Source: Labilibacter sediminis (GTDB taxonomy: Bacteria > Bacteroidota > Bacteroidia > Bacteroidales > Marinilabiliaceae). Taken from it: a DNA stretch of 64,000 bases. The stretch is taken from the NCBI RefSeq assembly GCF_005877885.1, contig NZ_VCHY01000003.1:310001-374000 (forward strand), in the 5' to 3' direction. Of the stretch, positions 36,903-59,369 are shown piece after piece; positions within the stretch are counted from its first letter, which is position 1, and every line of letters begins with the position of its first letter. Position numbers and translations under genes: made by a program. The notes under the pieces are model-generated. The model saw only the letters and a program-made list of their open reading frames with translations, was not told the DNA's origin and did no database searches.

Positions 36903-37415
36903 ATGAAAAAAATATACTTATTTTTATTTTTTTTATTGCTCATGCCTTGTCTTAGTCATGCGCAAGTAGAGAAGTATAAGTCTGTTTTTACGCTGAATTT
37001 TATTCGATATATCGGATGGCCGGAGGATGCAAAAAACGGTGACTTTGTAATTGGAGTTTTAAAAGATGCAAAGATTGCAGATTGGTTAACGAAGCAATCT
37101 GGAGGTAAAAAATTTGGCTATCAAAATGTGGTCATTAAACAGTTTAAATCGGTTGATGAAATGGTGGATTGTCAGGTTTTATATGTATCTGCCAATATAA
37201 ATTTCTCAAGACACTCTGCAACCATTAAAAGTAAGCTTGGTAAAAGTTCGTTAATCATAACTGAAACCGAAGGAGCTACTAAACATGGGGCAGTTATTAA
37301 CTTTGTTGTGAGAGAAAATAATTTAAAGTTTGAAATTCACGATTCAAATGCTCAGGCTTTAGGATTAAGTATTAGTTCGAAACTGGCGAATATGGCGGCA
37401 GCCATTAAGATGTAA
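36903..37415 (+). CDS. YfiR family periplasmic protein
   Basis: The 170-aa protein has a signal peptide (cleaved after LSHAQ) and the YfiR/DUF4154 core YKSVFTLNFIRYIGWPEDA, FVIGVL, LYVSANI and SLIITETEG. In Pseudomonas YfiR binds and restrains the diguanylate cyclase YfiN in the periplasm. Here no GGDEF protein is present; the next gene, 17 bp away, is a chemoreceptor with a periplasmic domain. I infer that this protein senses periplasmic or redox conditions and signals through that receptor. It opens a 22-kb run of plus-strand genes. Confidence 0.85.
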   Translation: MKKIYLFLFFLLLMPCLSHAQVEKYKSVFTLNFIRYIGWPEDAKNGDFVIGVLKDAKIADWLTKQSGGKKFGYQNVVIKQFKSVDEMVDCQVLYVSANINFSRHSATIKSKLGKSSLIITETEGATKHGAVINFVVRENNLKFEIHDSNAQALGLSISSKLANMAAAIKM

Positions 37416-37432
37416 CCTAATTAATTATAATA

Positions 37433-39139
37433 ATGAGAATAAAGTTAAACATTGCTCAAAAACTAATCGGTGGATTTAGTTTAATATTATTGGCAATACT
37501 TATAAATGGTATATCAACATATGTAACGCTTAATAATAGTAGAGCCTTAAGTGATAAAATTACTGGTGTTTATAGTCCGTCAGAGCATGGTATACAGCAG
37601 TTTAAGGATATGGTAATCAGCTCTAAAGCTTTAATTAAAAGTTGGGTTTTCATTGATCGTCAGCCAGGGACTGCGGATAAAATGGTATTAGAAAAACTAC
37701 ATGCAGAGGATTATACCAAGTTAATTGAAAGTATAGATGCCATTAAAAGTGATTGGGCTAATGAAGAGGACCGCCAGGCTTTTGATTCTATCAAGAATAA
37801 GGCAGATGCTTTATTTGTAAAACATGCCTATGTTATGTCGAGCTTAAATACGTTTGAGTCGTACGACGATGTAATGGTAATCTTTGAAGTTGAACCAATG
37901 GTTCAGGAGGACGGAGAAATCATAACCCTAAGTAACGAGATCATTGATGATTTAAATACTTTAGGAGAAAAGTTTGATACCTTAAATAAAGCTTCTCTTG
38001 CCGAAATGGATAACTCGTTTGGCTGGTTTAGTGGTTTTGTGTTGGTTATGATTATTGTATTAATTCTGGTATCCGGAGGTATTGCATATGTATTATATAC
38101 TAGCATTGTACAACCTTTAGTTAAAGGAGTAAACTTTGCCCAGGCAATTGGTGAGGGAGATTTAACTGCAGAACTTGAAATTCAGCAAGAAGATGAAATT
38201 GGTTTATTGGCAAAATCACTCGTAACTATGGCCGCTAATATTAAAGGTATTGTGGTATCCATAAAAGAAAATGCCAATGATCTTGTATCCAGTGGTAATA
38301 ATGTGAAGAGCAGCTCTATGCAACTATCTAAAGGATCTGCTGATCAAGCGGCGTCTGCTGAGGAAGTATCAACATCCATTGAAGAGATGGTGGCAAATAT
38401 TGATCAGAATACCGAGAATGCTGTGGAAACGGAAAAAATTACCGTAGAAACAGCTAAAGATGTGAATGTAGCAGATGAATTATCTTCAAAGGCTGCTGAT
38501 TCCATGAAAAGTGTATCTGAAAAAATTACCATTATTGGAGATATAGCATTTCAAACCAATATATTAGCGCTTAATGCAGCAGTTGAAGCGGCACGTGCAG
38601 GTGAGCATGGTAGAGGATTTTCAGTTGTTGCAGCAGAGGTAAGAAAACTAGCTGAAAGAAGTAAAGTTGCGGCCGACGAAATTTATGATCTTGTAAATGG
38701 TGGTTTAAAAGTATCGCAGGAAGCAGGAGAAAAATCAAGATTGCTAGTGCCGGACATTGAAAAAACAACGCAGTTGATTAAAGAAATATCAGCCGCTAGT
38801 TTAGAGCAAAAAACCGGTGCTGAGCAAATCAATATGGCCATGCAACAGTTAAACCTGATTACTCAGGAGAATGCATCTTCGTCTGATGAGTTAACGCAAA
38901 GTGCAGAGCAACTTTCTAGTTTGGCTGACCGATTAAAAGAAGCAGTAAGCTTCTTTAATATTGGTGATTCTGAAGAGGAAATATCTATATCCAGACCGAG
39001 TATAGAAGTTGAAAAAGAGGAATCAGGTGTTAAGGCTGAAACAAAAGCTAAGAAGAAGAAAAAAGTAAATGTTTCAGGAAAAGATGATTTAATCAACCTC
39101 GAAAAGGAGTTTGATTTAGATAATTACGAAAAATTTTAA
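37433..39139 (+). CDS. mcp: Methyl-accepting chemotaxis protein
   Basis: The 568-aa receptor has TM1 (about 11-31), a periplasmic helical domain of about 165 residues, TM2 (about 197-223), a HAMP domain (to about 276) and a cytoplasmic coiled coil. Its hairpin tip is canonical: [20 protein letters not shown], then [21 protein letters not shown]. The tail is a lysine-rich flexible linker ending in NYEKF. This fits the CheR/CheB tether consensus x-[HFYW]-x-x-[HFYW] at the very C-terminus. It is the only receptor in the cluster, so its adjacent YfiR partner, CheA and CheW define one signalling array. Confidence 0.95.
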
Positions 39140-39160
39140 TTCTCAAATAGTCTGTTTATT

Positions 39161-39472
39161 ATGGATGTACCATTTTCAATTGAAGTAAAGCAAGCTGAAA
39201 ATACGGTAGATATGATCATTACTGGAGATTTAATTATTAATCATATTACTAAAATTAAAGAACAGATAGAGAATTCTATTGATTATTCAAAAAACCTTGG
39301 TATTCGTGTAACAAATCCTTCAAGTATTGATATCACTTTTATTCAAATACTTTTTTCTCTAAAAAATAAGTATGAAAATAAAGAAGTAGATTTTAAATTT
39401 GAAGGTATTTTAAATGAAGAATTACATGGTTTAGTATCTAATGCAGGATTTCAAGACCTATTTAAACTATAG
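39161..39472 (+). CDS. STAS-domain protein (anti-anti-sigma-like)
   Basis: The 103-aa protein has the STAS layout: FSIEVKQAENTVDMIITGDL, a helix, then NPSSIDITFIQILFSLK where the phosphorylatable residue normally follows Asp (DSS/DIS). Here IDITF offers Thr. The end LVSNAGFQDLFKL matches the last STAS helix. STAS proteins are substrates of RsbW-like kinases. The position between receptor and cheY suggests a switch partner within this pathway; SiaC-like proteins at the other end of the cluster have a similar logic. Confidence 0.75.
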   Translation: MDVPFSIEVKQAENTVDMIITGDLIINHITKIKEQIENSIDYSKNLGIRVTNPSSIDITFIQILFSLKNKYENKEVDFKFEGILNEELHGLVSNAGFQDLFKL

Positions 39473-39491
39473 AAATAAATATTAACTAGTT

Positions 39492-39857
39492 ATGGCTAAG
39501 ACAGTTCTTATTGTTGACGATTCAGAAAGTATAAGAGAAGTTGTAAATTTTACCCTTCAAAACGAAGGTTATGATGTTTTGGTTGGAATTGACGGGGAAG
39601 ATGCTCTTCAGTTTCTTGATGGAAGAAATATCGATATTATTATTACCGATTTGCATATGCCTAATCTTGATGGCTTAGGTTTAATTCGTAAGGTAAGAGA
39701 AATAGACACTTACAAACATATTCCAATTCTTTTTCTAACTACAGAATCTCAGGCAGCAAAAAAAATGGAAGCTAAGCAAGCTGGTGCAACAGGATGGATT
39801 ATTAAACCATTTGTTCCGGCCAAATTGCTAAGTGCAATCTCAAGAGTTTTAAGATGA
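39492..39857 (+). CDS. cheY: Chemotaxis response regulator CheY
   Basis: This is a 121-aa stand-alone receiver: DD at 9-10, phospho-acceptor Asp53 in IITDLHMP, Thr-Thr in LFLTTES and Lys in IIKPF. The sequence VDDSESIREVV and KHIPILFLTTES are typical of chemotaxis CheY of the F6/F7-like families. It overlaps the following Hpt gene by 4 bp (ATGA). Because no flagellar motor genes exist here, phospho-CheY must act on another target, for example gliding or T9SS machinery, pili or the Hpt protein. Confidence 0.92.
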   Translation: MAKTVLIVDDSESIREVVNFTLQNEGYDVLVGIDGEDALQFLDGRNIDIIITDLHMPNLDGLGLIRKVREIDTYKHIPILFLTTESQAAKKMEAKQAGATGWIIKPFVPAKLLSAISRVLR

Positions 39858-40243
39858 TTGAGAAAATTAAAAAGGGATTTATAGATGACTCTATTAAGGA
39901 ACTTGAATCAATAGAAATTGATTTAGGAAACGAAAGGTTAGGGAGTGTTTCTGATTGTGTGATTGAAAAAATATTTACTACCACACATAATATCAAAGGA
40001 ACTGCACCAATGCTTGGAATAGTAGGCGTTCAGGAAATTGTTGAACCTATTGAGCAGGTTTATGCTGCTTTACGTAAAGGTGATTTAACATGTTCCAGCG
40101 AAATAGTAGATAATACTATTAAGTTAATCCCTGTCATAAAATCAGAATTAAACATTAGTCAACCACACGATATTGACTCAGAAGACCTAAATAAATCACT
40201 AAAGTTTTTTGATTCTTTAATATCCAAAGATGCAGGCGCATGA
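39854..40243 (+). CDS. Stand-alone histidine phosphotransfer (Hpt) protein
   Basis: The 129-aa protein is a single Hpt domain with phospho-acceptor His45 in TTHNIKGTAPMLG, equivalent to HSLKGGG in CheA P1 (also His45 there). It overlaps cheY and cheA by 4 bp at each end, so the three are translated in tight coupling. It may act as a phosphate sink or as a relay from CheA/CheY to another receiver. Such a free Hpt between cheY and cheA is unusual. Confidence 0.85.
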   Translation: MIEKIKKGFIDDSIKELESIEIDLGNERLGSVSDCVIEKIFTTTHNIKGTAPMLGIVGVQEIVEPIEQVYAALRKGDLTCSSEIVDNTIKLIPVIKSELNISQPHDIDSEDLNKSLKFFDSLISKDAGA

Positions 40244-42273
40244 TTGATAAGTTTAGAGCCAAATTTGTTGAAGAATCCCTCGACAATGTTCATGATTTGG
40301 AAGAAGCTTTGCTTCTTTTAGAAAATGATAAGTCGGATAAGGAAATTATAGAGCGTATTTTTAGAGCTATGCACTCTTTAAAAGGTGGTGGTGCGATGTT
40401 TGGGTTTAATGACTTGAGCGAATTTACACACCATCTTGAAACAGTATTTGATTGGGTAAGAAACAATAAACTGGTTGTTACGGATGATTTAATCTCGCTT
40501 ACCTTTAATGCTATAGACCAAATAAAGCATTTTCTTCAGGTAGGCGATTTAACTGAGGAATCTGAAAAGAAGGATTTGGAAATTATTACCCGCAAGGTTC
40601 AACAATTTGTTTCTAAACCATCTGAAATTTCAAGTTCACCAGAGCAAACTATATCGTCAGAGGTAAAGGTAGAAACAGATGATTCAAAATCATTTTTTAT
40701 ACAGTTTAAACCTCATAGAAACATATTACAAAACGGTACAAATCCACTTTTTTTACTGGATGATCTTCATGCCTTAGGTGAGGCAGTTGTTTTGTATAAT
40801 GGTAGCAAAGTTCCAGAATTAGATCAGTTAGATCCCCAAGAATGTTTTATTTTCTGGGACGTAATCTTAAATACTTCGGAACCAATTAATGAAATTCAGG
40901 ATGTATTTATTTTCGTTGAAGACGAGTGTGATCTCGAAATCACAGAAATTTTTAGTGGAAACATAATTCATCATCCTGTTTTAATCGATTTAATTGATAA
41001 AGCAAAAAAAGGAGAACAAGCCTTAAGCTCTAATCTTTTAAAAAGTGTTTCCTGGTCTGGCGAAAAGAAAGCAGGTAGTGGTGAAAAGAAGAAAGCCCAA
41101 TTAAAGGAACACAAGATTTCAAGTATCAGGGTTGCTTCAACTAAAATTGATGAATTGGTTAACCTGGTTAGTGAATTGGTTACTATTCAGGCACAACTGA
41201 ATTTATATGCTGAAAATAATGGTGAGCCACAAATAATTTCTCTTTCCGAAAATATTCAGAAACTTAGCCGTCAATTACGTGATAATGCGTTTGAAATTAG
41301 CTTGATACCACTTCAAAATGATTTGATGCGTTTTCAACGTTTGGTCCGTGATTTATCTAAGGAGCTGAATAAAGAAATTGACTTTATTATTGAAGGTGGC
41401 GATATTGAGCTGGATAAAAATATAATAGAGCATTTAACAGATCCATTGTTACACATGATTAGAAATTGTGTGGATCATGGAATTGAAATGCCGGATGAGC
41501 GTATTAAAAAAGGCAAGTCACCTAAGGGAACAATTATATTCAAAGCTTATTACGAAGGTGCCAGCGTTATTATTAAGGTAATAGATGATGGTAAAGGAAT
41601 TGATCCGGAATTCATATTAAATAAGGCCATATCTAAAGGTCTGATAGATGAAGGGGTTGAGCTGACGAAGAGTGAGATCTTTGACCTGGTATTTATGAGC
41701 GGATTTTCTACCAAGGATAATGTATCAGATCTTTCGGGCAGAGGTGTTGGAATGGACGTTGTTAAAAGAAAAATTGGTGAAATTCGTGGAGAAGTATCTA
41801 TTGATTCTGAACCGGATAAAGGAACAACAATAACCCTTGAATTACCACTTACTCTTTCTATTATCGATGGTTTATTGGTTACAATTGCTAAATCGCAATA
41901 TGTAATTCCAATTTCATCCATCGAAAAAATATTTCCATTGGAAATTGAAGATCAAAAAAATATCTTCAACAATGTTATTACTATGGATGGAGAGCAATTT
42001 CCAATTGTAGAATTAAGAGGAGTATTTAATGAGGAGAAATCGGAAGCAAAACAACATATTATTCAGGTTAAATATGAGAATAAAAAAGTTGGTATTGTTG
42101 TGGATGAGGTAATTGGGGAATATCAAACTGTTGTGAAACCACTGGGAAGATTATTGCGTAATCAGGATATTATTTCTGGTGCATCAATAATGGGAGATGG
42201 TACCATTTCTATGGTTGTTGATACCAATAGATTAATACATTATCACTGGTCTCAAAAATTACATAAACATTAG
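40240..42273 (+). CDS. cheA: Chemotaxis histidine kinase CheA
   Basis: The 677-aa kinase has P1 with His45 (AMHSLKGGGAMFGF). A P2-like regulatory domain (about 155-265, IQFKPHRNILQNGTNPLFLL, LDPQECFIFWDVIL) follows. P3 (about 295-355, RVASTKIDELVNLVSELV) dimerises it, P4 is the ATPase with MIRNCVDHGIE, DDGKGID and GRGVGMDVVK, and P5 is CheW-like. All catalytic elements are intact. It is followed directly by two cheW genes, with its stop codon abutting the first start. Confidence 0.97.
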   Translation: MIDKFRAKFVEESLDNVHDLEEALLLLENDKSDKEIIERIFRAMHSLKGGGAMFGFNDLSEFTHHLETVFDWVRNNKLVVTDDLISLTFNAIDQIKHFLQVGDLTEESEKKDLEIITRKVQQFVSKPSEISSSPEQTISSEVKVETDDSKSFFIQFKPHRNILQNGTNPLFLLDDLHALGEAVVLYNGSKVPELDQLDPQECFIFWDVILNTSEPINEIQDVFIFVEDECDLEITEIFSGNIIHHPVLIDLIDKAKKGEQALSSNLLKSVSWSGEKKAGSGEKKKAQLKEHKISSIRVASTKIDELVNLVSELVTIQAQLNLYAENNGEPQIISLSENIQKLSRQLRDNAFEISLIPLQNDLMRFQRLVRDLSKELNKEIDFIIEGGDIELDKNIIEHLTDPLLHMIRNCVDHGIEMPDERIKKGKSPKGTIIFKAYYEGASVIIKVIDDGKGIDPEFILNKAISKGLIDEGVELTKSEIFDLVFMSGFSTKDNVSDLSGRGVGMDVVKRKIGEIRGEVSIDSEPDKGTTITLELPLTLSIIDGLLVTIAKSQYVIPISSIEKIFPLEIEDQKNIFNNVITMDGEQFPIVELRGVFNEEKSEAKQHIIQVKYENKKVGIVVDEVIGEYQTVVKPLGRLLRNQDIISGASIMGDGTISMVVDTNRLIHYHWSQKLHKH

Positions 42274-42732
42274 ATGATGGAAGTCGATTTTAAAACACTT
42301 ATATCTTTTAAACTGGGAGATCAAACATTTGCTTTTGATAGCCTTTTGGTTAGAAATATTTTGCCCTACGAAAATAATGTAACAAAAGTACCTAACTCAA
42401 AAGATTTTGTCTTAGGTATTATCAATCTTCACGGGATCATAGTTCCGGTTACCGATATGCGTATGATTATGGATATTGATGAAACCGCCATTACTAAAGA
42501 TACTTCTATCATCATTGTTTCACCTGAAGATAAACAGGAGAGTCAGTTTGGGATTTTAGTGGATGTAGTAAAGGAAGTGTTCGAAGTTAAAAAGGCTAAA
42601 ATCGGTCCGTCATCGTTTCAAAAAGGAATGGGACTCATTGAAACATTTGAGGGTACGGTTCAGGAAAACGATGAATTTATTCACTTGATCGATTTAAAGC
42701 ATGTAGTTTCACAAATTGAAAGTAAAAACTAA
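42274..42732 (+). CDS. cheW: CheW coupling protein, copy 1
   Basis: This is a 152-aa CheW domain with ISFKLGDQTFAFD, the NILPYEN strand, LGIINLHGIIVPVTDMRMIM and FGILVDVVKEVFEV. CheW links receptors to CheA. It starts immediately after the cheA stop codon. It differs clearly from the second copy, so the two probably occupy different places in the array. Confidence 0.93.
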   Translation: MMEVDFKTLISFKLGDQTFAFDSLLVRNILPYENNVTKVPNSKDFVLGIINLHGIIVPVTDMRMIMDIDETAITKDTSIIIVSPEDKQESQFGILVDVVKEVFEVKKAKIGPSSFQKGMGLIETFEGTVQENDEFIHLIDLKHVVSQIESKN

Positions 42733-42737
42733 TATCA

Positions 42738-43220
42738 ATGGAAGAAATCAATAATTCATATCTTTCGTTTAAAATAGGAACGGAATCTTTTGCCATTCAT
42801 GTTAGTAAGGTAAATGAAATTAGGGAATATGAAGTTCCTCGCAATATGCCTGAATCTATTTCTTTCATGAAGGGCGTAATTGACCATCGTGAGGAAGTTA
42901 TACCAGTTATAGATACAGGAGTTAAATTTGCTTTAAAGCCTGTTGAAATAACACAACAAACTTGTATCATTATTATTGATGTTACAAGAAAAGATTCTGG
43001 AAAAACATTTCGTGTTGGAATATTAACAGATGCGGTTACAGATGTTTTTGAAGCTGCAGAAAGTCAGTTTAAACATATTGAAACAGATTATAGTCCTAAT
43101 TATATAAAAGCTACATGTCAAGTAAACGATAACTTTTATCTGATATTAAATTCAGATGAAGTATTCAGTGTGAATGACATAGTGGAAATGAGTTCTGTTA
43201 TTAAAGAAGTTAAAGCATAG
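42738..43220 (+). CDS. cheW: CheW coupling protein, copy 2
   Basis: The 160-aa protein has the CheW features YLSFKIGTESFAIHVSKVNEI, written here as SFKIGTESFAIHV, then REYEVPRNMP, SFMKGVIDHREEVIPVIDTG and RVGILTDAVTDVFE. It lies 5 bp after the first cheW. Its stop codon overlaps the GTG start of cheR by one base (TAGTG). Two CheW proteins for a single local receptor suggest that further receptors elsewhere in the genome use this kinase. Confidence 0.93.
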   Translation: MEEINNSYLSFKIGTESFAIHVSKVNEIREYEVPRNMPESISFMKGVIDHREEVIPVIDTGVKFALKPVEITQQTCIIIIDVTRKDSGKTFRVGILTDAVTDVFEAAESQFKHIETDYSPNYIKATCQVNDNFYLILNSDEVFSVNDIVEMSSVIKEVKA

Positions 43221-44089
43221 TGGATCGAGATAAGATATACTCAAAGGAGCTGGATTGCTTTAAAGCCGAATTATCTTCTAAGGATTTTGATGCTTTTAGT
43301 AATTTCATTTATTCCGAATTCGGAATAAAAATGCCTGCTGTAAAGAGGATTATGCTACAAGGACGCTTGTTAAAAAGAATCAGGCACCTGAAAATGAAAT
43401 CCTATGGTGAGTATAAAGATTATCTGTTTAGTAAAGAAGGTCAAAAAGAAGAGATATTTAATTTTTTAAATGTTGTAACTACCAATAAAACTGACTTTTA
43501 CAGGGAGCCTATTCATTTTGATTTTTTAAAGTCTAAAGTGCTTCCCGAATTTAACGCTAAAGCAGGCCATGAACCATTTAAAATTTGGAGTGCGGGCTGC
43601 TCAAGTGGTGAAGAATTATACACGATGTCTATTACTTTGAACGAGTATAAAAGAGAAAATCCAACTTTTAAGTTTTCTATTTTAGGTACAGATATTTCTC
43701 AAAATGTTTTAGGTAAAGCAGCAAAAGGAGTTTATCCAATGAACAAAGTGGATATAATTCCTTTGGAGTTGAAAAAAAAGTATCTTTTAAAAAGTAAGAG
43801 TAAAGAAAACCAAACGGTAAAGGTAAGACCGGAGTTGCAAAGCAGCTTAAGTTTAAAATATTTAAACCTGATGGATGCATCTTACTCTAATATTACAGAA
43901 AAGTTTGACGCTATCTTTTGTAGAAATGTTTTAATATATTTCGACAGAGCTACACAAGAAAGCGTAATAAATAAGTTAAGTTCACATCTTAAAACAGGCG
44001 GTTATTTTTTTATTGGACATTCAGAGTCATTAACAGGTATGGATGTACCCTTAGAACATATTAAGCCAACTATTTTTAGAAAAAAATAA
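43220..44089 (+). CDS. cheR: Chemotaxis protein methyltransferase CheR
   Basis: CheR methylates receptor glutamates with S-adenosylmethionine. The 289-aa protein has the N-terminal helical domain, TTNKTDFYREPIHF, the SAM-binding loop SAGCSSGEELYTMS, LGTDISQNVL, and IFCRNVLIYFDRATQ. It is complete and likely active. The start is a GTG overlapping the cheW stop. With CheD and CheB just downstream it forms the full adaptation set for the receptor, whose C-terminal NYEKF could tether it. Confidence 0.95.
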   Translation: MDRDKIYSKELDCFKAELSSKDFDAFSNFIYSEFGIKMPAVKRIMLQGRLLKRIRHLKMKSYGEYKDYLFSKEGQKEEIFNFLNVVTTNKTDFYREPIHFDFLKSKVLPEFNAKAGHEPFKIWSAGCSSGEELYTMSITLNEYKRENPTFKFSILGTDISQNVLGKAAKGVYPMNKVDIIPLELKKKYLLKSKSKENQTVKVRPELQSSLSLKYLNLMDASYSNITEKFDAIFCRNVLIYFDRATQESVINKLSSHLKTGGYFFIGHSESLTGMDVPLEHIKPTIFRKK

Positions 44090-44106
44090 AGCACAAAACG
44101 ATAACC

Positions 44107-45009: not shown

Positions 45010-45019
45010 GGGCGACTAG

Positions 45020-45490
45020 ATGAACCAATATTTACAACATTTTTTATATCCTTCTTCATTGTTTGTAAGTAAAGAGCCCTATCTGGTGAAAACCATATTA
45101 GGTTCTTGTGTGGCGATTTGCTTATGGGATTCCCGGTTGAAGATTGGCGGACTAAATCATTATATGCTTCCGCATTGGAATGGTAATGATTTGGCTTCAC
45201 CTAAATATGGAAATATTGCTATTGATAAGCTCATCGACCGATTACTTTTTCACGGATCGCGTATCGAAGATCTGCAGGCGAAAGTATTTGGTGGGGGTGA
45301 ACTGATGCAAACCGGCAATTCCAAAACTTTAATTGGAGAACGAAACATTAGAGTCGCTCGTCTTATGTTGGAGGAACGAAATATTCCAATAGTAGCATCG
45401 AGTACCGGTGGGAAAAGAGGTAGGAAGATAATCTTCTTTACCGATACCGGAGAGGTACGACACAAGCTATTGGATAAAAAAAGTAATTAG
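45020..45490 (+). CDS. cheD: Chemoreceptor glutamine deamidase CheD
   Basis: CheD deamidates receptor glutamines and can act as a phosphatase partner. The 156-aa protein has the catalytic Cys30 in ILGSCVAICLWD and His47 in GLNHYMLPH, then NIAIDKLI and AKVFGGGELM. Length and motifs are standard. It starts 10 bp after the kinase-like gene. Its presence means that the receptor probably carries Gln at some methylation sites. Confidence 0.95.
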   Translation: MNQYLQHFLYPSSLFVSKEPYLVKTILGSCVAICLWDSRLKIGGLNHYMLPHWNGNDLASPKYGNIAIDKLIDRLLFHGSRIEDLQAKVFGGGELMQTGNSKTLIGERNIRVARLMLEERNIPIVASSTGGKRGRKIIFFTDTGEVRHKLLDKKSN

Positions 45491-46658: not shown

Positions 46659-46756
46659 AAGGTAGCATAAGTCGCTAAAATGGTAAAAAGTTTATAATTT
46701 CGTTAGCGCAAATCCAACCCCATCCATAATTAAAAATAAACACAAAATTGATTATT

Positions 46757-50905: not shown

Positions 50906-51670
50906 ATGATAAAAAATCCAATATATCGGTTGTATGTTTTTGCAGGCTTAGCTTTTGTTTTTGCACTTGTAAAGTATTTTTTTGTTGAAGCAGAAATCTC
51001 ACCTAAGTTTTTTCTTTTGGAGGTAGTTTCGTTCGGATTATTTATAGCTATTATTTTTTTAGCGGATAAATTATTGAAAGAAGCTTCTCAAAACGAAGAA
51101 AACTATAAGGAGGAGTTGGATAAGCAAAAGTTTAGATATGAGGATGAAATAGATAATTTAAAATCTAAATTATCTCAATCGCAAAATGAGGATAAACTTG
51201 TTTTAAATAATGATGAACTTAATAAGGTAGCAGACAATATAATTAACCGTATTAAGAAATGTGAGAGTGTTGAAGCTTTAGCCAATGAACTTTTATGCCA
51301 AATGGCTAAATGCTATGAGGTTATGGTTGGAGTTTGTTATTTTAATTCAGAACCTTCTGATAAGTTTAACGTAAAAGCTACTTTTGGTATAGGTAAAGAG
51401 GTAGAAATTGCTGATTTTATGCCAAATGAAGGGTTAAATGGTCAGGTAGTTTCTGATATGAAACCGATGTTAGTGGATGAAATTGATGAAGATTATCTTA
51501 GTGTTGAATCTGGTTCAGGATCATCAAAGCCGGTGTATCTTTATCTACTGCCAGTCGTAAAAAATAACCAGAGTATCGGTCTTATAGAAGTTGCTTCTTT
51601 TAGTAATATTAAAATTGATCAACACTGGGTAACAATAAATAATCGTATTGCTGATACCATACTTTTATAG
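50906..51670 (+). CDS. Membrane-anchored GAF domain protein
   Basis: The 254-aa protein has two N-terminal membrane helices (about 8-26 and 36-55), a charged coiled coil (about 58-105) and a GAF domain (about 110-254). Recognisable GAF parts are VMVGVCYFN, MPNEGLNGQVVSDMKPMLV and SIGLIEVASF. It resembles the GAF region of the flanking proteins at 46757 and 51679, so the three probably arose by duplication and may form mixed complexes. No output domain is present. It lies 8 bp before the SiaA-like gene. Confidence 0.83.
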   Translation: MIKNPIYRLYVFAGLAFVFALVKYFFVEAEISPKFFLLEVVSFGLFIAIIFLADKLLKEASQNEENYKEELDKQKFRYEDEIDNLKSKLSQSQNEDKLVLNNDELNKVADNIINRIKKCESVEALANELLCQMAKCYEVMVGVCYFNSEPSDKFNVKATFGIGKEVEIADFMPNEGLNGQVVSDMKPMLVDEIDEDYLSVESGSGSSKPVYLYLLPVVKNNQSIGLIEVASFSNIKIDQHWVTINNRIADTILL

Positions 51671-51678
51671 ATAGCAAC

Positions 51679-54285
51679 ATGCAAATAAAAAAAGTACAAA
51701 ACCGAATAAGAAAGTATCTTGATTTCTCTCTGCTCTCAGAAAGAGATTTGTTTTTTTTATTGAGTTTTCTCCTTCTCACATATTTATTTATATGGGCTGG
51801 TTTTATCGATTTTTTAAATATCCCCTTCTCATTAAATACAATCATATCAATTCATGCCTCTCAACTGGTTTGGCTTGTTGATATTTTGGTTTTGAGTGTT
51901 CCATTCGGAGTAATTGTACTTTTAAATTACGGCAGAATTACAAAGGCTAATCAATCCAAAGAAATTAAAAAACTTAAGAATCAGTTAGAGTCAAATATCT
52001 TAATTGCTGATCTTATTCAGAAAGGTGAGTTTAAGAAAATTCTGAATAATAATAATGAAGTTTCACCTTTGTTAAGTTTAGCTAAAAACTTGATGGAAAC
52101 CAATGAAAAGGAAAAAGAGCTTAAATGGATTGCTAAGGGTAAAGAGCTGGTTAATGAGGATTTAAGGACTTATAGAACCATTGATGAACTTTCAATTGAA
52201 GTATTAAAAACCATTATAAAATATTGTGGAGCTATACAGGGTAGTTTTTACATATTAAAAGATGATAAAATGGTTAATAAAGCTACCTATGCATTTAACA
52301 GGCAGCGTTTTATTAACCAGGAATTTGAAATTGGAAGAGGATTGGTAGGTCAAGTGGCTTTTGAAAAAGCTATGATCTATCGTACAGAAATTCCTGATGA
52401 TTATTTTACTGTTACATCTGGAATTATAGGTGATAAGAAACCCAAAAGTTTAATTATTCTGCCTTTAATGCAGGAAGAGGAACTACAGGGTATTATTGAA
52501 ATAGGCTTTCTGAGCAAGGCTTTGCCTGATTATAAGATAAGCTTTGCACAGGAATTGGTTGGAATGATTGGTCGTACTATATACGCCCAAAAAATTAATG
52601 CTAAAACAGAGTATTTATTGCAGGAGTCGCAGGAGATGACTGAAACTCTTCAACAGAATGAGGAGAAATTAAAAGAAAATGCTCGTGAAATGATGATTGC
52701 TCAGGAGGATCTTGAACAATCAAATGAGTTATTAGAGTCAAAAATTCAGGAAGTAGAGAATGGTCAAAAACGTTTGGTAGCATTACTTACCAATGCTTCA
52801 GAGTTTATTTCCATCTATGATGAAAACCAAAGACTTCTATTTGAAAGTCCTTCAGTAAAAAGAATATTGGGTTATAGTGATGAAGATGATATTCAAGGGA
52901 TGGACCCTGAAATGCTAACACCAAGGGGCTATCGTACCATTAATAACTTATTTAAATATCTACTTGAAACACCTGGAGGAGAAAATGTAGCACAGTACGC
53001 CTATTTAAAAAAGAATGGAGAAAAGTTATTCCTGGAAACGAAAGGAAAAAACTTACTACATGATCCAGCCATTAAAGGTATCATCTTTAATACTCAGGAT
53101 ATTACTGAAAGAATAAGGGCCGAGAAAGAGGAGCGCATGAAAAGTAGAATGCAATCTCTGTCTGAGAATTCTCCGGATATGATTTTGCGTATTAATACTA
53201 CAGGAAAGCTGGTTTATGCTAACCCTGTAGTTAGTGATTTTATTGGTTTATCGCTAACAGAAATTACCAAGAAAAGAATAAGTGATTTACAGGTGGATGA
53301 ACGCTTTGTTGATTTTATTAACCATGTTTTGCATGAAATAAAAACTAACGAAGAACAAATCATCGAAGAGATCGAAATGAACACCCCGGATGGCGATAAA
53401 ATAATGCAAATAAAGGCCATTCCTGAGCTAAATAACGATAAGGTTTTAGAATCTGTATTGTTTGTGGCGCATGATATGACCGAGATAAAGAAAATTGAGC
53501 AGGAAATAAAAGAGAAAAATAAGAAGATTTCGGATAGTATTAATTACGCACAAAGAATTCAAACATCCATTCTTCCTGATACATCGCTATTACAAAGGCA
53601 TTTTCCAAGGTCCTTTATCTTTTATCGTCCAAAGGATGTTGTTAGTGGAGATTTTCCGTGGTTTGTACAAAAAGACGAAACATTATATGTTGCAGCCGTA
53701 GACTGTACAGGTCATGGTGTGCCCGGAGCATTATTATCATTTATCGGATACTTTTTGTTGAATAACATTGTGAACATTGATGACAATTTTAATGCTGCAA
53801 AAATATTGGAATTATTGCATCAGGATGTACGTTCAACCTTAAAGCAAAACGAAGAGGGTAATAATGGAAGAGATGGAATGGACCTCGCTCTTTGTAAAAT
53901 TGATAAGGAAAATAAGACAATACAATTTGCCGGAGCTCATAATCCATTATATTTGTTGAGAAATGGCGAATTAATAGAATATAAAGGAACCAGAAAAGGT
54001 ATAGGAGGTAAACCTCTTTTAAAGAAAAAGGAAAAGGATTTTGAAAATCATGAAATTCATTATCAGGAAGGTGATAAAATCTTTATTTTCTCAGATGGTT
54101 TACCTGATCAGTTAGGAGGAGAACGACGACGCAAATATCAATCAAAGCGTATTAGAGAAGCCTTAACTGCTGAAAAAGATTTAACAATGGCTCATTTTTC
54201 TCGTCATTTTTCATCTGATTTTTACGATTGGATGGGTGAAGAAAAACAAGTAGATGATGTGCTGTTAATAGGTATTGAATTATAA
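51679..54285 (+). CDS. SiaA-like membrane GAF/PAS PP2C-type phosphatase
   Basis: The 868-aa protein has two membrane helices (about 25-45 and 63-85) and a GAF domain (about 165-310). A long E/Q-rich coil, two PAS domains (about 370-480 and 490-605) and a C-terminal SpoIIE/PP2C phosphatase (about 620-868) follow. The metal-binding aspartates are present in VVSGDF, AVDCTGHGVPGALLS, GRDGMD, SDGLPDQ and VDDVLLIG. By analogy with Pseudomonas SiaA it should dephosphorylate the SiaC-like protein encoded two genes downstream. The sensor half is not the HAMP/dCache type of Pseudomonas. Confidence 0.9.
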   Translation: MQIKKVQNRIRKYLDFSLLSERDLFFLLSFLLLTYLFIWAGFIDFLNIPFSLNTIISIHASQLVWLVDILVLSVPFGVIVLLNYGRITKANQSKEIKKLKNQLESNILIADLIQKGEFKKILNNNNEVSPLLSLAKNLMETNEKEKELKWIAKGKELVNEDLRTYRTIDELSIEVLKTIIKYCGAIQGSFYILKDDKMVNKATYAFNRQRFINQEFEIGRGLVGQVAFEKAMIYRTEIPDDYFTVTSGIIGDKKPKSLIILPLMQEEELQGIIEIGFLSKALPDYKISFAQELVGMIGRTIYAQKINAKTEYLLQESQEMTETLQQNEEKLKENAREMMIAQEDLEQSNELLESKIQEVENGQKRLVALLTNASEFISIYDENQRLLFESPSVKRILGYSDEDDIQGMDPEMLTPRGYRTINNLFKYLLETPGGENVAQYAYLKKNGEKLFLETKGKNLLHDPAIKGIIFNTQDITERIRAEKEERMKSRMQSLSENSPDMILRINTTGKLVYANPVVSDFIGLSLTEITKKRISDLQVDERFVDFINHVLHEIKTNEEQIIEEIEMNTPDGDKIMQIKAIPELNNDKVLESVLFVAHDMTEIKKIEQEIKEKNKKISDSINYAQRIQTSILPDTSLLQRHFPRSFIFYRPKDVVSGDFPWFVQKDETLYVAAVDCTGHGVPGALLSFIGYFLLNNIVNIDDNFNAAKILELLHQDVRSTLKQNEEGNNGRDGMDLALCKIDKENKTIQFAGAHNPLYLLRNGELIEYKGTRKGIGGKPLLKKKEKDFENHEIHYQEGDKIFIFSDGLPDQLGGERRRKYQSKRIREALTAEKDLTMAHFSRHFSSDFYDWMGEEKQVDDVLLIGIEL

Positions 54286-54311
54286 AATATACAAAATTAA
54301 ATAACAGAACA

Positions 54312-54887
54312 ATGGGAAATGCACTAGACAACCATAGTTTTTTAGATTTTGCTTACCAGCTCTATCGAACTATGAAAACAAACGAGATAAGTCTGGTATA
54401 TGAAGGAGAAATAAATCAGGATATCACCAAAACTTTTACTTCATTAACAGAAAGGAATCTTGCTAAAAGTGAAGAATCAAACGCTGTTCAAAGAAAAGTG
54501 TTTAATGTGATGGTGGAGTGTTTGCAAAACATTAGTAAGCATGCCGATTCATTATCAGAAGATGATCAGAAAGAGCGTAGAGGAATTGTTATGGTGAGTA
54601 AGGGAGAAGAAAGCTATAATATCATCACGGGTAATGTGATTAAAAACTCAAAGGTTCCTGGTTTACGTGAAAGTCTTGAGCAAGTGAATTCTCTGGATAA
54701 AAAAGGATTGTCAACATTATATAAAACGCAAATGCGCGAAGGAAAACTTTCTGAAAAAGGCGGAGCCGGGCTTGGATTAATTGATATCGCCAAAAAAACG
54801 GGAAGTACCTTAACTTATCAGTTTAAAGAAATTGATGAAGAACTGTCCTTTTTTATTTTAACCTCAACCATCAAACGTAATAAATAA
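54312..54887 (+). CDS. siaB: SiaB family protein kinase
   Basis: The 191-aa protein matches the SiaB/DUF6272 family, a GHKL-type kinase. The N-box has Glu69 and Asn73 (NVMVECLQNISKHA), and the G2 box is GGAGLGLIDIAKKTG (150-164). In Pseudomonas SiaB phosphorylates SiaC. It lies between the phosphatase and siaC-like genes, 26 bp and 20 bp from them, exactly as in the sia operon. The surrounding chemosensory genes are a new context for it, as far as I know. Confidence 0.88.
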   Translation: MGNALDNHSFLDFAYQLYRTMKTNEISLVYEGEINQDITKTFTSLTERNLAKSEESNAVQRKVFNVMVECLQNISKHADSLSEDDQKERRGIVMVSKGEESYNIITGNVIKNSKVPGLRESLEQVNSLDKKGLSTLYKTQMREGKLSEKGGAGLGLIDIAKKTGSTLTYQFKEIDEELSFFILTSTIKRNK

Positions 54888-54907
54888 CATTTAAAAATAT
54901 ATAAACC

Positions 54908-55288
54908 ATGGAAGTTATCAATATACAAGGAACAGATGATACTCCTAATGTAATTCTAGATAAAGACAACGGGAAATTTGAAATTTCAGGTCGTTCATTA
55001 CCCGAAGATGTAAATATGTTTTATGAACCAATCATGAATTGGATCGATGGCTATTCTGAGGGACCTAATGGTGAAACAGAATTTCATTTTAAACTGGAAT
55101 ATTTTAACACAGCTTCATCAAAAATTATCTTAGATATCCTTCTTAAATTCGAAGAAATAGTTGAGGATGGCCATGATGTTAGAATCAAGTGGCATTACCA
55201 TGAAGAGGAGGAAGATATGTTAGAAGCAGGTGAAGAATATGCTGATATCGTAGAAATTCCGTTTGACTACGAACCTTATACTGACTAG
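54908..55288 (+). CDS. siaC: SiaC family regulatory phosphoprotein (DUF1987)
   Basis: The 126-aa protein shows the SiaC features ISGRSLPEDVNMFYEPIMNW and EYFNTASSKIILDIL. Thr68 in FNTASSK falls at the same position as the phosphorylated Thr68 that I recall for Pseudomonas SiaC. There, unphosphorylated SiaC binds and activates the diguanylate cyclase SiaD. No GGDEF protein lies in this window, so the partner here must be different. The following gene, an ABC exporter with a TerB domain, is the nearest candidate. Confidence 0.9.
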   Translation: MEVINIQGTDDTPNVILDKDNGKFEISGRSLPEDVNMFYEPIMNWIDGYSEGPNGETEFHFKLEYFNTASSKIILDILLKFEEIVEDGHDVRIKWHYHEEEEDMLEAGEEYADIVEIPFDYEPYTD

Positions 55289-55312
55289 ATCATAAATAGC
55301 AAGGATTAACCT

Positions 55313-58300
55313 ATGAGTGAAGAAATATTAAAGGCGCTGATGCAGTTGTTTGGCCTTATAGCCAAGCAGGATGGAGGAGTACAAAATAGTGAAGTAGAAT
55401 TTGTAAAAAATTTCTTAAACCAACAGCTTAGTTCAGAGGCTGTAGGGGAATATTTTGCTCTGTTTCAAAGGCACTCTAAGGTTAAGAAATCCGCACTGAA
55501 TAAAGGAGAAGAGGATAAGGTTCAGCTTACTTCAATGAAGGATTCTGTTAGGATTCTTGGTATTTGTAAAAAAATTAACAAGCAGCTAAACAAGGAACAA
55601 AAGGTTGTTGTACTGGTTCGTTTGTATGAATTGGTTAACGCAGACAGGCGTTTTACAGATCAGCGAATGGCCATTATTAATACCGCTGCTGATGTATTTA
55701 AGTTTTCAGAAACTGAGAAAACAAATATTGAATCGTTTGTTGTAAATGAAGCTTTAAAAGATCTTGATTTTGAAAACCTCCTAACCATTAACTCAAATGA
55801 GCACGATGGAGAACAAAGGGAGCATATACAATCAGGTAAGCTGGATGGTAGTGTTTTAATTTTGAGAGTTAAAAGTGCAGACTTGTATTTTCTTAGATAT
55901 ACTGGAAGTCAGGATGTATTTTTAAATGGTTTACTTTTAAGTCAGCGACGAATTTATCTTTTCCCGAAAGGAAGTTTTATAAAACTTCCGGGTGGAGCTC
56001 CTATATATTATACCGATGTAGTTGGTCATTTTATGACTGACGGATCAACTCCTAAAATTTCATATGTTGTAAACAGCCTAGGTTTTCAATTTAAAAATGG
56101 AGGTATTGGACTACGCGATGTAAATTTAGGTGAAGAACATGGGCGACTTGTTGGAATAATGGGGGCCAGTGGTGCCGGTAAAACCACATTGTTGAATGTT
56201 CTTTCTGGAACAGAAAGTCCAAGCTCGGGAGAGGTTCGTATTAACGGTATTAACCTTCATACCGAAAAAGAAAAACTGGAAGGTGTTATTGGTCTTATTC
56301 CGCAGGACGATCTTTTAATAGAAGAGTTAACGGTTTTTGAAAACCTTTACTATAACGCTAAACTTTGTTTTAAGGATAAAAATGAAGAGGAAATAACCAA
56401 TATGGTTAATGATACTCTTCAAAACCTGGGTCTATTTGAACGACGTAATTTAAAGGTTGGATCTCCGCTAAATAAAATGATTAGTGGAGGTCAGCGTAAG
56501 CGATTAAATATTGCTCTTGAGCTAATCAGGGAACCGGCAATATTATTTGTGGATGAACCTACATCAGGTCTGTCTTCAAGAGACTCTGAGAATGTAATGA
56601 ATTTGCTTAGGGAGCTTACCTTAAAGGGCAAATTAATTTTTGTAGTTATCCATCAGCCATCATCAGATATTTATAAAATGTTTGATAAGATGTTTATCCT
56701 TGACACAGGTGGTTATCCTGTATATTACGGTAACCCGAGTGAATCACTTATTTATTTTAAGCAGTTAGATGCCCAAATAAATAGTGAGCAGGGTGAATGT
56801 CCTCAGTGTGGTAACTTAAATCCGGAAATGGTGTTTAATATTATAGATGCCAATGTGTTGGATGAATATGGAAATTACACAAATAAAAGAAAGACTAACC
56901 CTCAGGAGTGGAATGAACACTATAAAAAGAATATCTCTATTCCGGAAATTACAGAAGTAGAAAGTGCTCCACCTCAATCATTAAATATTCCAGTGTGGAT
57001 TAAGCAGTTTAAGATATATACATTACGGGATTTCTTTTCAAAGATCTCTAACCTTCAGTATATTTTACTGAACCTTTTAGAAGCACCGGTTATTGGATTT
57101 ATTTTATCGTTTTTAATCAGATATATTGTAGATCCAGACTCTAATGTATATGTATTTAGAGACAATGAGAACATTCCTCCATATGTATTTATGGGGATTG
57201 TAGTGGCCTTGTTTTTTGGGCTTATTGTAAGTGCTGAAGAAATATTTAAGGATGCAAAAATACTCAAGCGGGAGGCCTTTTTAAATCTGTCCCGATCAAG
57301 TTACCTTATTTCAAAGGTCCTTATTTTATTTACGATATCTGCTATTCAAATGGCATTATTTGTTGCTGTGGCAAATACCATATTGGGTATAGAAGGTATG
57401 TTTTTTCAATTTTGGCTGGCATTGTTTTCAGTTTCAGCTTTTGCCAATATTTTAGGCCTTATTCTTTCAGCTTCATTTAATTCAATTGTAACTATCTATA
57501 TACTTATTCCTTTTGTAATGATACCGCAAATGGTATTGGGAGGAGCTATGTTTACATTTGATAAACTAAACAGAGATATCTCCAGTGCCGATAAAGTTCC
57601 ATTTATTGCTGAATTTATGCCATCACGTTGGATTTATGAAGGTTTAATTGTTGATCAGTTTAAAAACAATAAGTTTCAACGTTTATTTTATGATGTTGAA
57701 CAAGAAGAAAGTACTGCTAATTTTAAAATAGTATACTATTTTCAGGAGTTAGATGACATTTTAGATAATTGCAAGAAGTATATTGAATCAACTAATTCAG
57801 ATAAGGATGCAGAGCAGTTTAGCGATGATTTAGCATTGTTAAAGAACGAAATTGGTAAAGAAAACAGAAGAGTATCAGATATTCAATATACTCATTTGGA
57901 TAAATTGAACTCTAAAGATTTTGATTTAGAATTGTATACATCTGTAGCCAAACATTTAGAAGCTTTAAGATCACATTATACCGAGCGATTTACTAAAGCT
58001 TCTAATAAAAAGGATAAAATGATTAATATGGCTATCTCTAAATATTCTAAAGAGAAATTTAACCATATTAAGGACGTGAACCTAAATGAAAGCATTTCGG
58101 ATGTTGTGCTAAAAGTTTTTGAAAAGAATAAAATTTTGCGTCAGGGAGATAAGTTAATTCAGAATGTAGAACCAATTTATCAGATGCCTGAACCAGAAGG
58201 TTTTTTGTCATTTAGAACTCACTTTTTTGCACCTAAAAAACATTTTGGTGGTAAGTTTTACGAAACACTTTGGTTCAATATTTTTGTGGTATGGATATTT

Positions 58301-58387
58301 ACGATTTTACTTTATGTAGTTTTATATTTTGATTTATTACGTAAATCGTTTAATTTCCTTGGCGAATTAAAATATCTTAAAAAGTAA
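55313..58387 (+). CDS. TerB - FHA-like - ABCG-type exporter fusion
   Basis: The 1024-aa protein has an N-terminal TerB/DjlA-like helical domain (about 1-150) and a beta-rich FHA-like segment (about 165-255, with DVFLNGLLL and FPKGSFIKLPGG). An ABC ATPase has Walker A GASGAGKTT (ending at 292), signature SGGQRKR (from 391) and Walker B ILFVDEPTSG. A CPQCGNLNP cysteine pair (about 495) and an ABC2-type membrane domain (about 580-770) follow. A long charged coil and a last helix (about 1000-1018) end it. The half-transporter layout resembles FHA-ABCG proteins such as Rv1747, whose activity is set by phosphorylation. The substrate is unknown. Confidence 0.87.
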   Translation: MSEEILKALMQLFGLIAKQDGGVQNSEVEFVKNFLNQQLSSEAVGEYFALFQRHSKVKKSALNKGEEDKVQLTSMKDSVRILGICKKINKQLNKEQKVVVLVRLYELVNADRRFTDQRMAIINTAADVFKFSETEKTNIESFVVNEALKDLDFENLLTINSNEHDGEQREHIQSGKLDGSVLILRVKSADLYFLRYTGSQDVFLNGLLLSQRRIYLFPKGSFIKLPGGAPIYYTDVVGHFMTDGSTPKISYVVNSLGFQFKNGGIGLRDVNLGEEHGRLVGIMGASGAGKTTLLNVLSGTESPSSGEVRINGINLHTEKEKLEGVIGLIPQDDLLIEELTVFENLYYNAKLCFKDKNEEEITNMVNDTLQNLGLFERRNLKVGSPLNKMISGGQRKRLNIALELIREPAILFVDEPTSGLSSRDSENVMNLLRELTLKGKLIFVVIHQPSSDIYKMFDKMFILDTGGYPVYYGNPSESLIYFKQLDAQINSEQGECPQCGNLNPEMVFNIIDANVLDEYGNYTNKRKTNPQEWNEHYKKNISIPEITEVESAPPQSLNIPVWIKQFKIYTLRDFFSKISNLQYILLNLLEAPVIGFILSFLIRYIVDPDSNVYVFRDNENIPPYVFMGIVVALFFGLIVSAEEIFKDAKILKREAFLNLSRSSYLISKVLILFTISAIQMALFVAVANTILGIEGMFFQFWLALFSVSAFANILGLILSASFNSIVTIYILIPFVMIPQMVLGGAMFTFDKLNRDISSADKVPFIAEFMPSRWIYEGLIVDQFKNNKFQRLFYDVEQEESTANFKIVYYFQELDDILDNCKKYIESTNSDKDAEQFSDDLALLKNEIGKENRRVSDIQYTHLDKLNSKDFDLELYTSVAKHLEALRSHYTERFTKASNKKDKMINMAISKYSKEKFNHIKDVNLNESISDVVLKVFEKNKILRQGDKLIQNVEPIYQMPEPEGFLSFRTHFFAPKKHFGGKFYETLWFNIFVVWIFTILLYVVLYFDLLRKSFNFLGELKYLKK

Positions 58388-58401
58388 CCTTTTATAAGGT
58401 T
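58386..58401. repeat. Short inverted repeat after the ABC exporter gene
   Basis: AACCTTTTATAAGGTT is a 6-bp stem with a 4-base loop overlapping the stop codon. There is no T-tract, so it is at most a weak terminator or mRNA end protector. Confidence 0.3.
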
Positions 58402-58445
58402 TATAGTATAACCTAATTGATTTGATTTATATAAAAAACTTTATC

Positions 58446-59369
58446 ATGTTAAAGAAATTATTTTACACAACGGCTATATTGGTTGGAGTTTTGTTATTCT
58501 CTGCCTGTTCTGGAAATTCTGGTAAAACTAATAAAACAGAATCAGATGACTTTACTTTAGATGAGGCTGCTCTTAATCAGGATGCACCGCTTGAGTTATC
58601 AGAAGAAATTATCGGAGATGTTATTCAAAATATTTCATCCCCGGTTGAAATGGCTGCTTTAATTAAGAAATCAGGTGTTGATTTTTCTCAAAAGATTCTT
58701 AATAAGCCAGAAAGAATCAGCGATTACAATACAAGTTTTAAAAGAGCACTTAATTTAGGTGTTTTTAGTGCTGATTTAGGTTATATCAATACATTTGATA
58801 AAAATACCATTGTAATTTCTTATTTATTAGGTATTAAAGAATTAGCAGAAGGTATTAAAGTTGGTCAGTTTTTCGATTTTAATTCATTAAAGCAAATTGC
58901 CACTAACAGTAACAACTTAGACTCTTTAATGGAGATTTCTGTGAATAGTTTCAACAAGATGGATTCATATCTTAGAGAACAAAACAGAAGTAACGTTAGT
59001 ACACTGATTGTGACAGGAGCCTGGATAGAAGGTTTGTATATTGCTGGTAGTGTTATTAAAGAGACTAAAGATTCAGAATTAATTAACCGTATTGGTGAGC
59101 AAAAAGATATTATTGATATTTTATTGATCATTTTAAATAACTATAGTGCAGATCCTAATTTTGCTGAAATGGTTACTCGCATGGAGCAAATTAAACAAGC
59201 TTATGCAGGTGTTAAAATTACAACTGAGTTTGGCGAACCTAAGCGAATTGAAAGAGAGGGTACCTTAGTTATCGTTCAGGACGAAATTAGCCATGTTGAA
59301 ATTACTCCTGAGCAAATTGATGCTATTGTTACTGAAATTGCTAATTTGAGGGATTTCATTGTATTGTAG
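58446..59369 (+). CDS. Lipoprotein of unknown function
   Basis: I choose the ATG at 58446 (MLKKLFYTTAIL), which gives a lipoprotein signal with the lipobox LLFSAC and 307 residues; a TTG eight codons upstream is unlikely. The mature part starts with a low-complexity acidic linker, then is helical (SSPVEMAALIKKSGVDFS, LGVFSADLGYINTF, VTGAWIEGLYIAG). I recognise no domain. It lies 58 bp after the ABC exporter gene and is probably co-transcribed. It may serve that exporter or the array from the periplasmic side. Confidence 0.75.
   Translation: MLKKLFYTTAILVGVLLFSACSGNSGKTNKTESDDFTLDEAALNQDAPLELSEEIIGDVIQNISSPVEMAALIKKSGVDFSQKILNKPERISDYNTSFKRALNLGVFSADLGYINTFDKNTIVISYLLGIKELAEGIKVGQFFDFNSLKQIATNSNNLDSLMEISVNSFNKMDSYLREQNRSNVSTLIVTGAWIEGLYIAGSVIKETKDSELINRIGEQKDIIDILLIILNNYSADPNFAEMVTRMEQIKQAYAGVKITTEFGEPKRIEREGTLVIVQDEISHVEITPEQIDAIVTEIANLRDFIVL

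Follow-up and report, generated by a model that had tools for sequence, protein, structure and literature searches.

How gliding Bacteroidota steer, and what their chemotaxis genes do, are open questions, and both are raised by a locus of Labilibacter sediminis in which chemosensory genes run directly into those of a SiaABC partner switch. The locus lies in a 64,000-nucleotide stretch of the 6.36 Mb draft genome (contig NZ_VCHY01000003.1, positions 310,001 to 374,000; hereafter the window), where 23 co-oriented genes occupy positions 36903–59907 of the + strand in the order YfiR-MCP-STAS-CheY-Hpt-CheA-CheW1-CheW2-CheR1-HK-like-CheD-CheB1, then GAF/PAS-CheR2-CheR3-CheB2-GAF-SiaA-SiaB-SiaC-TerB/ABC-lipoprotein-ORF (Table 1; MCP, methyl-accepting chemotaxis protein; HK, histidine kinase; ORF, open reading frame). 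Gaps as called do not exceed 89 bp, the largest separating CheB1 from the GAF/PAS gene, and overlaps are of 4 bp (CheY/Hpt and Hpt/CheA) or 1 bp (CheW2/CheR1). Such short gaps and overlaps of 1–4 bp had been described in an earlier note on this DNA, and every gene named there was found on the + strand where it had been placed, with its name backed by Pfam. The note had also proposed a single system. Our analysis suggests instead two signalling modules within a single conserved neighbourhood, in which an array would act through CheY and a Sia switch would gate the adjoining exporter; we give this reading about an even chance of being right. No description of a che-SiaABC locus, or of SiaC in Marinilabiliaceae, was found in the open-access literature (titles and abstract openings).

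Across the family (Marinilabiliaceae), SiaC was found downstream of CheA on the same strand, at 12,988–16,090 bp, in at least 40 of 68 genomes and at least 17 of 21 genera. The earlier note had let its single system depend on conserved linkage of cheA and siaC, and linkage at about 13–16 kb is indeed conserved. The count covers 68 of 71 family genomes (G044 holds only a distant CheA, and G062 and G067 have no CheA match) and took its SiaC rows from the matches listed, with the top-scoring paralog group left out; the remaining genomes, 12 with another arrangement on the CheA contig and 16 without a listed SiaC there, were counted as unlinked. Among 29 named Marinilabiliaceae-type loci, 17 keep the order through TerB-ABC (L033, L041–L047, L049–L052, L054 and L056–L059; L046 and L127 are the same sequence), with Hpt undetected in some and YfiR not found in L047. 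Since gene order is conserved in relatives, chance or mis-called ORFs are ruled out, and linkage in at least 17 genera likewise rules out an assembly peculiar to one strain. The closest named relatives of the window's CheB1 are from Plebeiobacterium and other Marinilabiliaceae.

The joining is therefore real and conserved, yet the locus is not indivisible, since the modules part in several lineages. Six Carboxylicivirga-type loci (L035–L040) run to SiaA, their SiaB-SiaC-ABC part lying elsewhere, a further locus (L060) runs to SiaB, three (L034, L106 and L055) stop at CheB1, and the last two of the 29 (L048, the same sequence as L128, and L053) are short stretches. In genus g7, 9 of 14 genomes have CheA and the SiaC unit 23–123 kb apart on one contig, while for the other 5 the unit is not listed on the CheA contig; four stretches read (L115, L116, L117 and L126) showed SiaB-SiaC-TerB/ABC-lipoprotein-ORF as an unbroken unit. 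In two Saccharicrinis metagenome-assembled genomes (MAGs) the locus is interrupted after CheB1, before the GAF/PAS gene, with the second half intact in G051 and, as far as the contigs reach, in G052. In another family of the class, two genomes (G362 and G459; L186 and L189) carry CheR-CheB-GAF-SiaA-SiaB-SiaC-TerB/ABC-lipoprotein-ORF with no che core in the 17–20 kb read and no CheA match at E ≤ 1e-120. The breaks at CheB|GAF-PAS and SiaA|SiaB, together with the standalone second half, thus indicate two modules in one neighbourhood.

Two independent operons lying side by side, kept by slow rearrangement or shared expression and exchanging no signal, would account for the locus parting at one joint in some lineages and at another in others, for a second module that stands alone in another family, and for the che cores of other Bacteroidales, which adjoin SiaA-SiaB-SiaC-ABC in only 1 of 40 stretches read (L155). 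We consider this possible but somewhat unlikely, as the same-order linkage persists across those 17 or more genera, in which CheA identity falls as low as about 50%, the six Carboxylicivirga-type loci retain SiaA beside the che genes after the departure of SiaB-SiaC, and L155, from another family, joins che core and Sia half again. The two modules are probably co-regulated, and their coupling is likely. Promoter counts near or below those of shuffled sequence (34 found against 45.6 and 55 against 58.2 in two scans; 7 against 6.47 for TTTG-TAnnTTTG and 106 against 105.4 for TAnnTTTG) leave the transcription units unreadable from the sequence.

The 40 stretches represent 40 of the 49 non-family genomes of the order with a CheA match, several of them on short contigs. 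In 21, CheB closes the che core and GAF/PAS sequence comes next (one protein of ~750 aa in the loci opened). SiaC was present in 2, namely L153 (38% identical, on the opposite strand after a GAF/PAS gene) and L155 (G310), in which the che core is followed directly by GAF-SiaA-SiaB-SiaC-TerB/ABC without GAF/PAS, CheR2, CheR3 and CheB2; one more, L157, has a SiaB-like gene without SiaC. In quick trees made without bootstraps, the CheA of 15 Marinilabiliaceae-type rows formed one clade (Shimodaira–Hasegawa-like approximate likelihood ratio test, SH-aLRT, 100). The idea that G310 simply acquired the entire locus from Marinilabiliaceae was rejected, since the L155 CheA falls outside that clade, whereas the L155 TerB-ABC groups as sister to the window-type clade; L155 may owe its joining to ancestry or to convergence. 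Within a phylum sample of 345 genomes, SiaC was found in 20 and CheA at E ≤ 1e-120 in 5, and both only in the window's genome.

A single integrated circuit, as the earlier note had it, would let CheY or methylation state set SiaA and make Sia the main output of CheA. Gene order and co-orientation, the GAF/PAS and CheR/CheB genes between the halves, and the che-Sia linkage in at least 40 of 68 genomes all speak for such a circuit, which we nevertheless hold to be quite improbable: CheB2 lacks a receiver and so offers no obvious route from CheA, no receiver domain was detected with Pfam in SiaA or in the GAF/PAS or GAF proteins, and the Sia module can be found with no che core in its vicinity.

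The first of the two modules we favour, from YfiR to CheB1, has a complete set of adapting chemosensory parts, with MCP, CheA with its P1 His, CheW, CheY, CheR and CheB together. It shares with canonical adapting systems (MCP-CheA-CheW-CheY-CheR-CheB-CheD) the full part set with active residues kept, CheY Asp53 being present in 95 of 95 rows. The MCP ends in aromatic-x-x-aromatic in 28 of 28 rows (L048 and L128 being one contig), which in the window reads NYEKF and which would be a putative CheR tether. Unlike canonical systems, the locus adds STAS, Hpt and YfiR (the YfiR-like protein scoring under both NCBIfam YfiR cut-offs), contains a His-less HK-like protein and has no CheZ, CheC or CheX in the cluster. 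It also belongs to a family in which FlhA exceeded its cut-off in 0 of 71 genomes (2 weak partial matches), which agrees with the earlier note's claim that flagellar genes are absent. The MCP with CheW1 and CheW2 would drive CheA to phosphorylate CheY, and CheR1, CheD and CheB1 would adapt the array.

Phosphorylated CheY (CheY-P) probably acts on the type IX secretion/gliding motor, by a putative contact with GldL. Median identity over the 29 named family loci was 93% for CheY against 63% for CheA, which fits a constrained CheY partner, and GldJ, the only gld gene searched, was found at E < 1e-100 in 68 of 71 genomes (over its curated cut-off in 52 of 71, and in 0 of 14 controls). The CheY-like receiver domain of PorX binds GldL, according to the accessible part of its report (PMC10951265); the locus has in common with PorX the receiver domain, but its CheY consists of that domain alone and belongs to an adapting array, and a contact of this CheY with GldL would be hypothetical. 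The accessible part of a 2025 study of rotation direction in the type IX secretion system credits directional bias to GldJ and mentions CheY for the flagellar motor only (PMC12239597). To the question of steering, the locus contributes a CheY with its array, together with a predicted phosphatase.

The predicted phosphatase is the unexpected part of the locus: a 300-aa HK-like gene between CheR1 and CheD, omitted from the gene list of the earlier note. Its box reads FISNISNEIVNP, and PDB kinases put their phosphoacceptor His against Asn57. The His is absent from all 59 rows, 58 of them distinct, which come from Marinilabiliaceae and further families of Bacteroidales; Asn57, Glu58 and Asn61 are identical in every row, and Asn61 supplies the Thr/Asn found four residues past the His position in HisKA phosphatases. 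The ATP-binding residues are also kept (N-box Asn in 59, Asp209 in 58 and Gly213 in 57 of 59 rows). In the part of the Myxococcus CrdS report available to us, the H371A protein retained most phosphatase activity and brought the half-life of phosphate on the regulator down to 2.6 min, from 53.5 min, whereas N375 was essential (PMC3510030). In the 71 family genomes CheZ exceeded its cut-off in none (1 weak match), CheX matched none, and CheC matched one, that of Labilibacter sediminis itself. Given the kept Asn61, the CrdS precedent and this absence or near-absence, the HK-like protein is best read from its sequence as a predicted CheY-P phosphatase, which would strip phosphate from CheY and stand in for CheZ, CheC or CheX; a His-to-Asn kinase relative thus makes a sharp biochemical prediction. 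A scaffold or allosteric partner would be the alternative: DivL, which has no phosphoacceptor His, is among the PDB sequence matches (4q20), and a pure phosphatase might not need the ATP site that nearly all rows keep. We think this role rather unlikely, as the Asn required for HisKA phosphatase activity is retained throughout the 59 rows. The loci contain 32 further HK-like proteins, of which 30 have the His, one showed no motif and one has an Asn. The latter (FLSNIRNEINNP), from L087, a Desulfuromonadales MAG, is 33% identical to the window's protein and is probably of the same kind, since it has the Asn and lies beside CheD in a che cluster.

The second module, from the GAF/PAS gene to the last ORF, has in common with SiaABCD of Pseudomonas aeruginosa a PP2C phosphatase SiaA, a SiaB kinase and a SiaC with Thr68 (matches to PDB 6k4e, 6kko and 7e6g). 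The metal-site residues of SiaA (Asp675, Asp806 and Asp859) are conserved in all 27 rows that have letters at these positions; SiaB scored 176 bits against a cut-off of 85 for NF038262, and its N-box Asn and G-box are kept in 30 of 30 rows, leaving the ATP site intact. Thr68 of SiaC, which the earlier note had singled out, is present in the window, and 32 of 33 rows, paralogs among them, have Thr at this position. The NCBIfam cut-offs for Pseudomonas-type equivalogs were missed (SiaA 174/700, SiaB 90/225 and SiaC 86/150 bits). In contrast to the Pseudomonas system, SiaA has GAF/PAS domains in its sensory half, the adjoining genes include CheR/CheB and a TerB-FHA-ABC exporter, and GGDEF matched 0 of 71 family genomes in a search that was positive in 8 of 14 controls. 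The earlier note's claim that cyclic di-GMP (c-di-GMP) genes are missing thus extends to the family, and a SiaD-like diguanylate cyclase is excluded as the SiaC target as far as the GGDEF model sees. SiaC itself was present in 70 of 71 family genomes among the matches listed. Nearly universal and without GGDEF, it needs another target, so that a second kind of target is to be expected, with the adjoining exporter as the obvious candidate. Control of the exporter by the Sia switch, as proposed in the earlier note, gains support from a paralogous SiaB-SiaC pair, which has a convergent TerB/ABC paralog as its neighbour in 13 of 14 family loci (all those read but L207) and in L179. The portion of the DUF1987/SiaC report at hand proposes the protein as a modulator of adjacent proteins and states that SiaC phosphorylation precludes the SiaC-SiaD interaction (PMC8457831). 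Elsewhere, SiaB-family proteins with two tandem DUF6272-like halves were seen in L153 (12265–13350, next to SiaC) and L157 (3096–4223), a 317-aa CheW-like plus CheY-like protein lies directly upstream of SiaC in another group of the phylum (L194 8738–10327, G586:C5), and G054 and G057 (genus g20) each have seven SiaC among the matches listed, in genomes of 3.4–3.6 Mb.

Within TerB-ABC, residues about 133–243 were modelled as FHA-like (mean predicted local distance difference test, pLDDT, 86.6), placing an FHA-like fold ahead of the ABC ATPase in the exporter model. In a VIA-align fold search, FHA domains made up most of 50 rows with Z up to 8.1 (87 aligned, root-mean-square deviation 3.1), where Z of ~8 is borderline; the top row for the modelled exporter part (Z 9.1) was a TerB-like helical protein. 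Residues 1–266 had no match among PDB sequences. FHA domains usually read phosphothreonine, and the FHA-like domain therefore suggests contact with SiaC, which by analogy with SiaC-SiaD may be phosphate-independent. Rv1747-type exporters likewise pair an FHA fold with an ABC exporter (FHA-2 of Rv1747, 6cah, was in the fold-search list), and Rv1747 is reportedly regulated by a Ser/Thr kinase; here, by comparison, a TerB domain stands in front and the usual phosphothreonine residues are not evident.

Between the two halves, the earlier note's second CheR/CheB set was only partly borne out, in that one CheR has the S-adenosylmethionine (SAM) motif, whereas the other lacks it and the CheB has no receiver domain. 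Under a strict pattern the motif was found in 20/29 rows for CheR1, 16/28 for CheR2 and 0/28 for CheR3, and under a looser one in 25/29, 26/28 and 0/28. The catalytic Ser, His and Asp of CheB2 are kept in 31 of 31 rows (at least one a duplicate). The second CheR/CheB pair appears to be part of the Sia module, because CheR-CheB-SiaABC-ABC occurs without a che core in G362 and G459. CheR3 is retained beside CheR2 with the motif gone from 28 of 28 family rows, as a fixed pseudo-methyltransferase.

Taken together, the second module would be a c-di-GMP-free Sia partner switch in which membrane GAF/PAS sensors, tuned by CheR2 and CheB2, would set the SiaA phosphatase; SiaA and the kinase SiaB would set phosphorylation of SiaC Thr68, and SiaC would gate the neighbouring TerB-FHA-ABC exporter with its lipoprotein. 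By being expressed together, and perhaps also by CheR/CheB crosstalk, the two modules would link surface movement to export of a surface or matrix factor. The Nostoc hmp locus is comparable, although to our knowledge it lacks an exporter. In the accessible part of its report, that locus (HmpU/HmpW/HmpV) is likewise a partner switch tied to surface motility, with its target unknown (PMC8256260); it uses the STAS-type HmpV where the locus here has SiaC. The fullest combination would be a c-di-GMP-free Sia switch, tuned by its own CheR/CheB pair, that controls an FHA-ABC exporter and is connected to an adapting array whose CheY steers the type IX gliding motor and is turned off by a new CheY phosphatase class, a His-less kinase relative fixed in Bacteroidales che clusters and seen once in Desulfuromonadales; we regard this combination as unlikely in all its parts at once.

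Several points weigh against the two-module reading as drawn here. The modules separate in several lineages, so that a shared circuit is not required, and the whole explanation was reached by computation. GldJ marks a gliding-type apparatus and provides no link to the CheY of the locus. Labilibacter sediminis has a CheC/CheX-like protein away from the locus, in a row with a CheY and a large PAS/GAF hybrid histidine kinase (contig C34:114386–118889; L213 4387–8890), and because the CheX search missed the CheX-like part of this protein, absences of CheZ/CheC/CheX type elsewhere are less certain. For the switch, a paralogous SiaC in L129 has Ala at the Thr68 position, and most SiaC loci of the phylum sample outside the class have no adjoining TerB-ABC ortholog, which limits the exporter proposal. 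For the exporter, no FHA match reached E ≤ 0.001 in Foldseek (the best had 7.8e-3, with probability 1.00 for some FHA chains), and inspection by eye of an alignment of 41 rows did not bring out the usual phosphothreonine-binding residues in the FHA-like domain, so that docking of phospho-SiaC is unsupported.

Table 1. Features of the chemosensory and Sia locus, in window coordinates.
Feature	Position	Strand	Evidence and remarks
YfiR/HmsC-like periplasmic protein	36903..37415	+	PF13689 (DUF4154) E 3.6e-31
Chemoreceptor (MCP) with HAMP	37433..39139	+	PF00015; CheR-tether-like C-terminus NYEKF
STAS-domain protein	39161..39472	+	PF01740
CheY	39492..39857	+	PF00072
Stand-alone Hpt protein, His45	39854..40243	+	PF01627
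CheA (P1 His45, dimerisation, ATPase, CheW-like domain)	40240..42273	+	Pfam
CheW1	42274..42732	+	PF01584
CheW2	42738..43220	+	PF01584
CheR1 methyltransferase	43220..44089	+	PF01739 E 3.8e-58
Histidine-kinase-like protein, 300 aa	44107..45009	+	PF02518; Asn57 replaces phosphoacceptor His
CheD	45020..45490	+	PF03975
CheB1 (receiver + methylesterase)	45579..46658	+	PF01339, PF00072
GAF/PAS/PAS protein, hydrophobic N-terminus	46748..48634	+	Pfam; no kinase or phosphatase domain detected
CheR2 methyltransferase	48652..49494	+	PF01739; SAM motif in 26/28 family rows
CheR3, CheR-like without SAM motif	49499..50305	+	PF01739 E 8.1e-15; motif in 0/28 rows
CheB2, methylesterase domain, no receiver; Ser17, His44, Asp137	50318..50893	+	PF01339
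GAF-like membrane protein	50906..51670	+	PF13185 weak, below cut-off
SiaA-type GAF/PAS/PP2C phosphatase	51679..54285	+	PF07228 (SpoIIE/PP2C); PDB 6k4e E 1.8e-35
SiaB-family kinase	54312..54887	+	PF19788 (DUF6272); PDB 6kko_A
SiaC, Thr68	54908..55288	+	PF09345 140 bits; PDB SiaC E 8e-16
TerB - FHA-like - ABC ATPase - ABC2 membrane exporter	55313..58387	+	Pfam; model and fold search
Predicted lipoprotein	58422..59369	+	ATG at 58446 likelier start; Cys20
Conserved 158-aa protein, last gene	59431..59907	+	follows lipoprotein in relatives
Terminator-like hairpin	59927..59959	.	13-pair stem with T-run

Labilibacter sediminis has a second, distant CheA cluster (L114 5558–11958, contig C122) with a CheA about 34% identical, a CheW, a receiver protein, an MCP with CZB zinc-binding domains and an OprB-like porin. 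In other Bacteroidales a ~600-aa protein lies upstream of STAS-CheY-CheA (L133 454–2259, L061 265–2073 and L161 17683–19473); the one scanned, that of L133, had no Pfam match, and the protein is possibly an unrecognised input component. Upstream of YfiR in the window is a divergent 358-aa gene (35644–36720) with no Pfam or PHROGs match. At the other end of the locus, PHROGs gave no match for the lipoprotein or the last ORF, no family match was found for the latter, and the lipoprotein model (mean pLDDT 77.0) had a best PDB match of E 0.5; its Cys20 (aligned-fragment numbering) is invariant in 10 rows. The run of the earlier note had ended at 59369, the last position of the predicted lipoprotein gene, and the conserved 158-aa gene extends it by one, up to the terminator-like hairpin.

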